A DNA stretch of 64,000 bases from Phenylobacterium haematophilum (GTDB lineage Bacteria; Pseudomonadota; Alphaproteobacteria; Caulobacterales; Caulobacteraceae): NCBI RefSeq assembly GCF_014196295.1, contig NZ_JACIDK010000002.1, forward strand, positions 682,001 through 746,000, read 5' to 3'. Under the pieces are notes generated by a model that had not been told where the DNA came from, searched no databases, and was given only the letters and a program-made list of their open reading frames with translations. This document shows, piece after piece, positions 14,189 to 19,640 of the stretch (within the stretch, counting starts at the first letter, position 1; each line of letters starts with the position of its first letter). The position numbers and the translations under genes are program-made.

Positions 14189-14896
14189 ATGGCGTCCACG
14201 TCCGCACCGCCCGCCGCCGCGCCGCGCCGCCGGCGCATGCTCGGGGCCTTCGTCGCCCGGCCGCGGCTGCTGGCCGGCGTCGCCGCCGGTCTCGTCGTCT
14301 GGGCCGCCTGCCTGCTGATTCCCAACGAGCTCAGCCTGGTCACGGCGGCCATCCTGGCCTGGGACGCCACCTGCCTGGCCTTCATCGTGCTGGCGATCAC
14401 CATGATGTGGGGCGCCGACCCGGCCCGCATGCGCGCCATCGCCGCGACGCAGGACCAGGGCCAGGGCGTGATCCTGGCGCTCGCCGTCGCCGCGGCCGCC
14501 GCCAGCATCTGGGCCATCGCCCGCGAGCTGTCGGCCGCCAAGGCCGACGAGGGCTTGGTCAAGGCGCTGCGCGTGGGTCTGGTCTTCGCCACCGTCGCGG
14601 CGTCCTGGTTCATGGTGCAGATGATCTTCGCCCTGCACTACGCGCACGAGTACTACGCCCCAGACGACGACACCCCGCGCGACGCAGGCGGCCTGCAGTT
14701 CCCGGGCGGCGAGCTGCCCGACTACTGGGACTTCCTGCACTTCTCGGTGGTCATCGGTGTCGCCTGCCAGACGGCGGACGTCTCCTTCACCTCCAAGGAG
14801 TTGCGCCGCATCGGCACCGTCCACGGCGTCGTCGCCTTCGTGTTCAACACCGTGGTCCTGGCCCTGACGATCAACCTGCTGGCCGGACTGTTCTAG
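14189..14896 (+). CDS. DUF1345 family inner-membrane protein
   Basis: The 235-residue protein has five to six membrane segments. It also has the family signature in the middle, [17 protein letters not shown], followed by the acidic stretch and [22 protein letters not shown] and the closing [27 protein letters not shown]1345 proteins are widespread and uncharacterised. The gene is divergent from rpmI and ends in a 4-base overlap with the convergent EamA transporter gene. Confidence 0.85.
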
Positions 14897-15792
14897 GGCG
14901 CGGGCGCGCCGTCCTCGGCGATCTGCCCGGCGGCGGCCGGATCGGTCAGGATCACGCCGACCGAGGCGGCGATGATCAGCCCGATCGCCAGCCACTGCGA
15001 GAGCGCCAGGTGCTCGCCCAGGATCAGCAGCCCGGCCACCGCGCCAGCGGCCGGCTCCAGGCTCAGCATCACACCGAAGCTGCGCTTGGGAATGCCGCGC
15101 AGGGCGACCATTTCCAGCGAGTAGGGGATGGCGCTCGAGACGATCGCCACCATCAGCCCCAGGGCCAGCAGCTTCAGATCGAACAACCGCGCGCCGGCCT
15201 CGACCAGGCCGAACGGCACGACGATCAGCGCTGCGGTGCTCATGCCCAGCGCCACCGATTGCCCGGCCGGCAGATGGCCGGTCCTCTTGCCCAGCACGAT
15301 ATAGAGCGCCCAGCAGACCGCCGCGGCGGCCGCAAAGCCCACCCCGACCGGATCGAGCGCATGGGCCGCGTCGCGCCACGGCAGCAGCAACAGCAGCCCT
15401 AGAGCAGCCAGCCCGATCCAGACGAAATGGATCGGCTGGCGCGCATGGATCAGCGCCAGGCTCAGGGGCCCGATGAACTCGATGGCGATGGCCAGCCCCA
15501 GCGGAATGGTGCGGATCGCCATGTAGAAGCTGAGGTTCATCAGCCCCAGAACGCTCCCGTAGAGCGCCAGCCGGCCAAGGTCGTCGCGGCTCAGCGGCTG
15601 ACGCCACGGCCGCCAGATCAGGCACAGCAGCAGCGCCGAGAACCCGACCCGATAGGCGGTCGCCCCCTGCGCCCCGACCAGTGGAAACAGCTGCTTGGCG
15701 AACGAAGTCCCAGCGCACAGCGAGACGATCGCGCCGATCAGCGCCGCATAGGGAATCAGGGCGCGCGGGGCTGGTGCGGAAGACATGGACAT
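14893..15792 (-). CDS. EamA/DMT-family transporter, RhtA-like exporter
   Basis: The 299-residue protein has ten hydrophobic segments arranged as two EamA repeats. It resembles the threonine/homoserine exporter RhtA group: [21 protein letters not shown] near the N-terminus, [20 protein letters not shown], and [23 protein letters not shown] in the second repeat. It probably exports small neutral metabolites or amino acids across the inner membrane. The exact substrate cannot be read from sequence. It lies 35 bases downstream of the two MFS genes on the same strand. Confidence 0.82.
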
Positions 15793-18271: not shown

Positions 18272-18555
18272 GTGAGCGCTGTTAAGACGACCCGCGTTAC
18301 GCCGCAAGCCCGAGTTCGGGGCTTGGTTGTTCGGTCGCGGGGGTGCGGCTTCAAGGCCTCAGTATGGGGGCGAGGGGGGCTAATCGGCGTCGCGCACGAA
18401 CCCCTCCGGCCTAGCTGCCGTAACGGCATGATCCCACCCTGCGCAGCCCCGATGTCGGACGGTTCGTGCCGTCGGTTCGGCGTCAGGCCCAGGGCCCGGC
18501 TCGGCGGCGGCATCTCGGGGCTTGTGGGGGAGCCGCGCATTTTCTATTGCTGGCC

Positions 18556-18654
18556 TCGCATCAAGAGTTGGGCGTCGCCCAACGCCAACCTGCTTCCCGA
18601 GCAAGGTGGCGCTCCCTCCCGGGAGGATGTGGCCGCGGCGGCAATCCAACGGGT
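18556..18654 (+). promoter_or_regulatory. Candidate SAM-I/SAM-IV-clan riboswitch before metA
   Basis: The fold can be drawn by hand. P1 is GCATC (18558-18562) with GATGT (18626-18630), followed by AAGAG. P2 is TTGGGC/GCCCAA (18568-18582, 3-base loop), then the core GCCAACC (18584-18590). P3 is TGCT/AGCA with loop TCCCG (18591-18603), then AAGGTGGC, then P4 CTCCC/GGGAG (18612-18625). Beyond P1 a small hairpin GCCG/CGGC (18632-18642) is followed by CGGG (18650-18653), which can pair with CCCG in the P3 loop. AAGAG, GCAACC-like and AGGTGC-like segments and a pseudoknot 3' of P1 are hallmarks of SAM-I and SAM-IV RNAs. The gene controlled, metA, fits. It ends 47 bases before the metA start. Confidence 0.65.
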
Positions 18655-18701
18655 GATCCCAGCTCCGTCCCGGTCCGAGTTGAATGACTGAGGGCTGAAC
18701 C

Positions 18702-19640
18702 TTGCCGATCAAGATTCCCGACGCCTTGCCTGCGCGCGCCACACTGGAAGCCGAGGGCGTTATCGTCATGGCCGAGACGCAGGCCGCGCGCCAGGACATC
18801 CGGCCGCTGCGCATCGGGCTGCTGAACCTGATGCCCGACAAGCCGAAGACCGAAATCCAGTTCGCTCGCCTGCTGGGCGCCACTCCCCTGCAGGTCGAGC
18901 TCTCGCTGGTCCAACTGGCCAGCTACACGCCGCGCAATACACCGCCTGAACACCTGGCCGCTTTCTATCGGACCTGGGACGAGGTCAGGCACGAGCGGTT
19001 CGACGGCTTCATCGTGACGGGCGCGCCGGTCGAGACGCTGCCCTTCGAACAGGTAGACTACTGGGACGAACTGACCCGGATCTTCGACTGGACCCAGAGC
19101 CATGTGCACAGCAGTCTAAACATCTGCTGGGCCGCCCAGGCGGCGCTTCACCACTTCCACGGCGTCGGCAAGCACATACTGGCGGCCAAGCGCTGGGGGG
19201 TCTTCTCTCACCGGCTGGCCGCGCCGGCGTCTCCGTACCTCCGCGGCATGTCCGACGAGGTCGACGTGCCGGTCTCGCGCTGGACCGAGGTGCGGGCCGA
19301 AGAGTTGCCCGAGGGCGCGGGGCTGAACGTGCTGCTGGAGTCCGACGAGTCCGGCCTCTGTCTGGTCGAGGATGCGCAGCATCGCGGGCTGCACATGTTC
19401 AACCACCTCGAATACGACGCCACGACCCTAGCCGATGAGTTCGTCCGCGACCGCGCCAGGGATCCGGCCACGCCGCAGCCCCTGAACTATTTTCCGGACG
19501 GCGACGCCGGCCGGCCGCCAGCCAACCGCTGGCGCAGTCACGCGCACCTGCTGTTCGCTAACTGGATCAACGAAATCTACCGCACGACCCCGTACGACCT
19601 CAACGACATCGGCGGTTCGAACTCCGGGCGCCGCATCTAG
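18702..19640 (+). CDS. metA: Homoserine O-acyltransferase MetA (predicted acetyltransferase)
   Basis: The 312-residue enzyme acylates homoserine, the first committed step of methionine synthesis. It starts at a TTG (18702) after a GAGGG ribosome site; the N-terminus MPIKIPDALPARATLEAEGV matches the family exactly. The catalytic Cys is in NICWAAQAAL, and His and Glu are in MFNHLEYD. The substrate-loop motif GAPVETLPFEQVDYW carries Glu where succinyl-type enzymes have Gly, which predicts acetyl-CoA use despite the old succinyltransferase name. A SAM-sensing RNA candidate lies upstream. metZ is 40 kb away in the same window. Confidence 0.95.
   Translation: MPIKIPDALPARATLEAEGVIVMAETQAARQDIRPLRIGLLNLMPDKPKTEIQFARLLGATPLQVELSLVQLASYTPRNTPPEHLAAFYRTWDEVRHERFDGFIVTGAPVETLPFEQVDYWDELTRIFDWTQSHVHSSLNICWAAQAALHHFHGVGKHILAAKRWGVFSHRLAAPASPYLRGMSDEVDVPVSRWTEVRAEELPEGAGLNVLLESDESGLCLVEDAQHRGLHMFNHLEYDATTLADEFVRDRARDPATPQPLNYFPDGDAGRPPANRWRSHAHLLFANWINEIYRTTPYDLNDIGGSNSGRRI

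Follow-up and report, generated by a model that had tools for sequence, protein, structure and literature searches.

What kind of RNA precedes metA in Phenylobacterium haematophilum, how usual is it there, and by what means might it control the gene? The locus lies within a 64 000-nucleotide stretch of the genome, here called the window. For positions 18556–18654, the original prediction proposed a SAM-clan aptamer combining a SAM-I core with a SAM-IV-like pseudoknot and considered its position before metA in a Caulobacterales genome unusual.

The sequence at 18556–18654 was as described. The proposed check with the Rfam covariance models (cmscan) yielded a match to the SAM-I/IV riboswitch family, RF01725, at 18553–18658 on the forward strand, scoring 51.8 bits (gathering score 41.1) and spanning the full model (positions 1–99 of 99). 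The E-value was 1.1e-7 when a 501-base stretch was searched and 1.4e-5 for the window as a whole. Under the Rfam clan rule only the best family is listed, and a weaker SAM-IV or SAM-I match would stay unlisted. With a covariance model built in this analysis, of which the window is one row, the aptamer scored 102.2 bits. No SAM-II (RF00521) match over the gathering score was found in the window, and none up to an E-value of 10 in 18400–18900. The fold energy of 18545–18735 (z −1.66, with 11 of 200 shuffles equally good) is weak evidence alone in GC-rich DNA.

All elements of the aptamer are on the forward strand. P1 pairs GCATC (18558–18562) with GATGT (18626–18630). It is followed by AAGAG (18563–18567), the conserved-core part of J1/2 as located by alignment, which we take to contribute to SAM binding as in the SAM clan. 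The P2 hairpin TTGGGC-GTC-GCCCAA (18568–18582, strands 18568–18573 and 18577–18582) is a stem of six pairs with a three-base loop and no internal loop, so there is no room for PK-1; the prediction that P2 is too short for the SAM-I internal pseudoknot was borne out. P3a and P3 occupy 18584–18610 (P3a 18584–18586/18608–18610, P3 18589–18594/18600–18606) and present a TCCCG loop, of which CCCG (18596–18599) pairs with CGGG (18650–18653) to form PK-2. The P4 hairpin CTCCC-TCCC-GGGAG lies at 18612–18625 (strands 18612–18616 and 18621–18625) and the P5 hairpin GCCG-CGG-CGGC at 18632–18642 (strands 18632–18635 and 18639–18642).

To assess these helices we aligned 78 metA aptamers (the window plus 77 named relatives, 76 distinct rows). 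Standard pairs made up 97.8% of pair cells, compared with 35.8–51.0% when the partner was slid by one to three columns. Two-sided changes occurred in 77 pair cells against a shuffled mean of 20.9 ± 3.3 (0 of 500 shuffles), and such changes affected eight pairs, compared with 6.1 in shuffles (20 of 500): two in P2, two in P3a/P3, one in PK-2 and three in P4. There were none in P1 or P5. In P1 a single pair varies, on one of its sides, and seven of the nine P3a/P3 pairs are invariant; since P1, P5 and most P3a/P3 pairs barely vary, they carry little weight for or against. PK-2 was recounted in 82 matches aligned to the covariance model without that helix, with related rows and one chance match (L029:2824–2907) kept in the count. 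Pair 44–101 was formed in 62 rows (CG 37, UA 14, AU 7, UG 4), pair 47–98 in 60 (GC 44, CG 10, UA 3, AU 2, UG 1), and the inner pairs were standard in 75 and 78. The positions beyond pair in just 30 and 17 of the 82 rows, so PK-2 consists of four pairs. The predicted hairpin and CGGG 3′ of P1, with CGGG opposite the P3 loop, are therefore present as P5 and PK-2, of which PK-2 covaries and P5 shows no two-sided change. The joint absence of a model match and of compensatory changes in homologous metA leaders was to speak against the original prediction; both were found, the changes in P2, P3, P4 and PK-2.

How does this RNA compare with the known SAM riboswitches? SAM-I (RF00162) has the same core and P1–P4 order, but carries a kink-turn and PK-1 in P2, whereas the P2 of the window has neither and P5 and PK-2 are additional. 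SAM-II (RF00521) shares the gene and the presumed ligand, but its fold is unrelated and it has no match in the window or the own genome. SAM-IV (RF00634) shares P5 and a PK-2 reaching from the P3 loop to the 3′ tail, but has P2a/P2b and PK-1 and lacks P4 according to the available part of PMC6890682, whereas the window has P4 and no PK-1. For SAM-I/IV, available sections of PMC6890682 and PMC2864571 give a P2 without internal loop, P4 present and PK-1 absent; RF01725 appears as SAM-I-IV-variant in the table of Weinberg 2010 (PMC2864571, accessible part). The window matches this family in its P1–P2–P3–P4–P1–P5–PK-2 order, its simple P2 and its AAGAG/CCAACC/AAGGU core, as compared by eye with structure 4L81 (sequence from the available text of PMC5393176); a sequence-only MAFFT alignment misplaced the core. 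We found no difference that breaks membership, the linker of the window being GC-rich and 43 bases long, with a Shine-Dalgarno sequence. The score, the simple P2 without PK-1, and P4 together with P5 and PK-2 all agree with SAM-I/IV, as does the usual though not strictly defining context, the leader of a methionine or SAM gene, here metA. Because this combination is exactly that of a known family, the aptamer is no intermediate; the features of the original candidate stood. On model match and conserved pairing, the leader RNA is a well-supported member of the already known SAM-I/IV family. We regard it as highly improbable that the RNA belongs to SAM-I or SAM-IV in the strict sense or no longer binds SAM; the clan core is shared, but P2 leaves no room for PK-1, P4 and PK-2 are both present, and the core bases AAGAG and CCAACC...AAGGTGG match those of the metA alignment.

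The gene itself, metA (18702–19640, forward strand), begins with TTG 43 bases downstream of the RF01725 model end and encodes a homoserine O-acyltransferase of 312 amino acids (PF04204, 411 bits). An in-frame stop at 18696 excludes a start upstream of TTG 18702, and relatives start at the same reading (MPI...) with TTG, ATG or GTG. The best NCBIfam model was MetA_acetyl (NF047918, 435.4 bits, curated cut-off 460.5), followed by MetA_succinyl (TIGR01001, 386.3 bits, cut-off 495); with both below their cut-offs, the acyl group may be either acetyl or succinyl. The protein is 89% identical to the copy in Phenylobacterium sp. PB1.003. An RhtA-like threonine/homoserine exporter gene (14893–15792, reverse strand; 283.4 bits where the cut-off is 354) is separated from metA by roughly 3 kb that include two MFS transporters.

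The arrangement proved not to be unusual. Among the best 80 of 358 named metA loci, those nearest to the query, Rfam scans found SAM-I/IV upstream in 77 and SAM-II in three (L114, L122 and L129); the expectation that alphaproteobacterial metA usually goes with SAM-II thus fails for this branch, where SAM-I/IV, and not SAM-II alone, regularly precedes the gene and is an ordinary leader. As the loci are the nearest to the query, these counts are silent on more distant metA genes. The 77 come from Caulobacterales, Sphingomonadales, Acetobacteraceae, Methylobacterium and others, and the records of two (L063 and L084) are labelled as Bryobacterales and Acidobacteria bins. SAM-II precedes metA and metZ in Sinorhizobium meliloti, according to the available part of PMC9373788. 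A literature search that left most subscription journals outside it turned up nothing on SAM-I/IV before metA in Phenylobacterium.

Scans of multiple genomes for RF01725 used stricter filters that lose weak matches; with the own genome counted in each set, matches were found in 35 of 385 genomes of the class, 26 of 398 of the order, 14 of 101 of the genus and six of 60 relatives, while one of 14 named control genomes had a match, below cut-off. Under the same filters SAM-II matched in five of 60 genomes, four of them over the cut-off, and gave no match in the own genome or in the 35 congeners searched. Nine of the 101 genus genomes have metA. All five copies of 74–100% identity have a SAM-I/IV leader, and the other four (63, 63, 64 and 47% identity; L163, L164, L165 and L166) have no Rfam leader match at E-values up to 0.01, so metA does not need this leader. 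By eye, the upstream regions of L163 and L164 resemble each other over a stretch.

We then consider control. The linker, or expression platform, between aptamer and start codon (18659–18701, forward strand) is 43 bases long, compared with 35–78 bases in the 77 named relatives, and contains a Shine-Dalgarno-like GAGGG at 18690–18694, 37 bases after the CGGG of PK-2. In the predicted linker fold its GGG is paired (unpaired probabilities 0.02, 0.00 and 0.01), and the first G (0.54) and the A (0.99) are largely free, which counts against hiding. A simple consensus scan of 18300–18800 found no terminator-like site between aptamer and metA. Given this and the paired GGG, control is most likely translational rather than transcriptional. 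Very probably, then, metA has a SAM-I/IV riboswitch in its 5′ leader that turns the gene down: high S-adenosylmethionine would close P1 and the P3-loop pseudoknot PK-2, the SAM-bound leader would hide the Shine-Dalgarno sequence, and less homoserine acylation would mean less methionine synthesis. The aptamer, pseudoknot, gene and conserved pairing are the computed parts of this explanation; S-adenosylmethionine is the putative ligand, and off with SAM the putative direction, from class and gene. PK-2 is reportedly part of the switch in the SAM-I/IV structure paper (Trausch 2014). A second SAM-I/IV target, a PLP enzyme with metY at most 1.5 kb upstream in five of nine loci, supports an explanation in terms of methionine and SAM.

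Several relatives, such as L010, L013 and L027, have GC hairpins followed by T-runs just before the start codon, as would be expected were the same aptamer to act by transcription termination instead of Shine-Dalgarno hiding. We consider this improbable for the window, whose sole terminator-like site in 18300–18800 lies upstream of the aptamer, at 18523–18537. The folding of the window's linker was no better than that of shuffles (z −0.31). Mean z was −1.35 for ten Caulobacterales metA leaders (4/10 below −1.5), −2.12 for 68 non-Caulobacterales metA leaders (41/68), −0.46 for nine leaders of the threonine-aldolase-like gene described below (2/9), −1.40 for 25 other leaders of the class (14/25) and −0.80 for four leaders with the Shine-Dalgarno sequence in PK-2, also described below (2/4). 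The 68 leaders speak for Shine-Dalgarno hiding, and the window's own value speaks against it. A closing helix between UGAUC (18654–18658) and GAUCA in the first metA codons was rejected, the UGACC and UGAGC variants being uncompensated.

If Shine-Dalgarno hiding is the mode of control, what would the SAM-free leader look like? Complementarity between a linker arm and the P2 5′ strand and loop is common in relatives: 11 pairs in L010 (AGGGCUGACGC/GCGUCAGCCCU), 11 in L007 (AUGAUUUGACG/CGUCAAAUCAU, with an AU-rich P2 loop) and ten each in L027, L081 and L149. Against shuffled linkers, the best J1/2–P2 helix reached p ≤ 0.05 in 21 of 68 other metA leaders and nine of 25 other class leaders, and in one of nine aldolase, one of ten Caulobacterales metA and none of four Shine-Dalgarno-in-PK-2 leaders. 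Whole-linker duplex energy gave a partial signal, with J1/2–P2 z below −2 in 24 of the 68 and seven of the 25, and in none of the ten, nine and four.

Each leader's own linker was also compared with those of others, once the 145 leaders had been thinned to 90 at 85% similarity. The fit of P2 to its own linker exceeds that to the linkers of others (residual z 7.0, 0/5000 permutations), against z 0.3 for P3, 1.8 for P4+P1 (223/5000) and −1.3 for P5+PK-2; P3 barely varies and is a low-power control, and P4+P1 is not a clean one. Divided by source, P2–linker z was 2.4 for 37 named metA leaders (73/5000) and 6.3 for 53 leaders with G handles (0/5000), the latter with a P4+P1 z of 3.2 (9/5000). Harder thinning, with five draws each, left a P2–linker z of 4.0–5.8 at 39–41 leaders (0/2000 each), 2.1–3.5 at 26–30 and 1.5–4.5 at 17–20 (weakest draw 152/2000); P4+P1 was a weaker positive throughout (z 0.9–3.4), and P3 and P5+PK-2 had no signal.

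The same comparison bears on an exchange of PK-2 strands, by which CGGG would leave the P3 loop and pair with a linker CCCG, freeing the Shine-Dalgarno sequence. The linker of the window does contain CCCG, and CUCCGUCCCG is exact in five of the 16 Caulobacterales metA linkers, the window included, but 4532 of 5000 permutations scored at least as high as the observed P5+PK-2 value, and z stayed between −1.6 and 0.4 over 20 thinned draws. With no own-over-cross signal the exchange was dropped, and we rate it as quite improbable.

A helix between J1/2–P2 and linker with a score of at least 20 and at least seven pairs was found in 26 of the 90 leaders; in a few of them it falls in another part of J1/2–P2, outside the 5′ strand and loop. 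For 22 of these 26, the linker's own fold pairs half or more of the complementary segment with bases downstream, which makes the two pairings mutually exclusive. P2 GACGC and linker GCGUC co-occur (72 leaders with both, 42 with neither, 19 and 12 with one; 145 leaders, relatedness uncorrected). Their flanks form 201 standard pairs against 181.5 ± 4.3 (0/5000; 52 distinct flank combinations), mostly owing to position −2 (33/52 against 22.0, 1/5000), the other four positions being weak (158 to 1471/5000). From these sequence patterns we suggest, tentatively and with slightly less than even confidence, that many alphaproteobacterial SAM-I/IV leaders, the window excepted, switch via P2. With SAM bound, the off state, the linker arm would pair inside the linker and the Shine-Dalgarno sequence would be hidden; in the SAM-free on state the arm would pair with the P2 5′ strand and loop, undoing the aptamer at P2 instead of P1. 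The P2 helix, which could otherwise vary freely, would change in step with the linker. If true, this coupling gives riboswitches of a class with a solved aptamer structure a switch mechanism that can be tested; such an alternative pairing of P2 may already have been described (Trausch 2014; the SAM-IV paper of 2008). The accessible part of a 2024 review counts SAM-I/IV among the riboswitches still without apo structures giving a mechanistic basis (PMC11477058).

The window has neither conserved half, GACGC in P2 or GCGUC in the linker, and would therefore need another exchange. Its linker might also invade the aptamer as the SAM-free state, at J1/2–P2 (GAGUUGG with CCAGCUC) or at P4–P1 (CGGGAGGA at 18620–18627 with UCCGUCCCG at 18664–18672, with one bulge). 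The P2–linker coevolution of the wider set speaks for this, as at best a hint does the J1/2–P2 duplex energy in nine thinned Caulobacterales leaders (z −1.72, 212/5000). However, the J1/2–P2 helix of the window had p 0.29 against shuffled linkers, with the single Caulobacterales metA leader at p ≤ 0.05 noted above, and the 16 leaders of that group, the window included, showed no J1/2–P2 coupling (z −0.2). P4–P1 gave z 2.9 over the same 16, but this was lost on thinning to nine (z −0.55) and the P4–P1 pairing was set aside. On balance, invasion of the aptamer by this linker seems unlikely.

The second of the two RF01725 copies in the own genome precedes a threonine-aldolase-like gene (PF01212) located behind metY (L001:1501–2696, contig C8:49742–50934); the arrangement is also seen at L197:5743–6938 and, in other genera, at L007, L141, L144 and L150. 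Copies with at least 88% identity are present in eight of 101 genus genomes, the own included, and in all eight the riboswitch accompanies the gene. The 17 RF01725 matches in the genus all lie away from the 42–50% identical aldolase paralogue that most genus genomes have. Nothing on a SAM riboswitch before threonine aldolase was seen in the literature search, which had the scope given above.

In six loci (L008, L133, L134, L136, L149 and L157) SAM-I/IV is followed by an ORF for a small protein of the DUF3293 family (PF11697), and these leaders would link that uncharacterized family to SAM or methionine. Five others (L039, L040, L042, L045 and L151) have a compact SAM-I/IV that, by eye, lacks a clear P4. 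Its PK-2 3′ strand, only a few bases upstream of the start codon, doubles as the Shine-Dalgarno sequence AGGAG and lies opposite CUCC in the P3 loop; SAM closing PK-2 would therefore directly hide the ribosome site there. AU-rich SAM-I/IV leaders at L014, L018, L022 and L024 precede genes that cluster together by blastp, and the one at L018 encodes an OmpW-family outer membrane protein.
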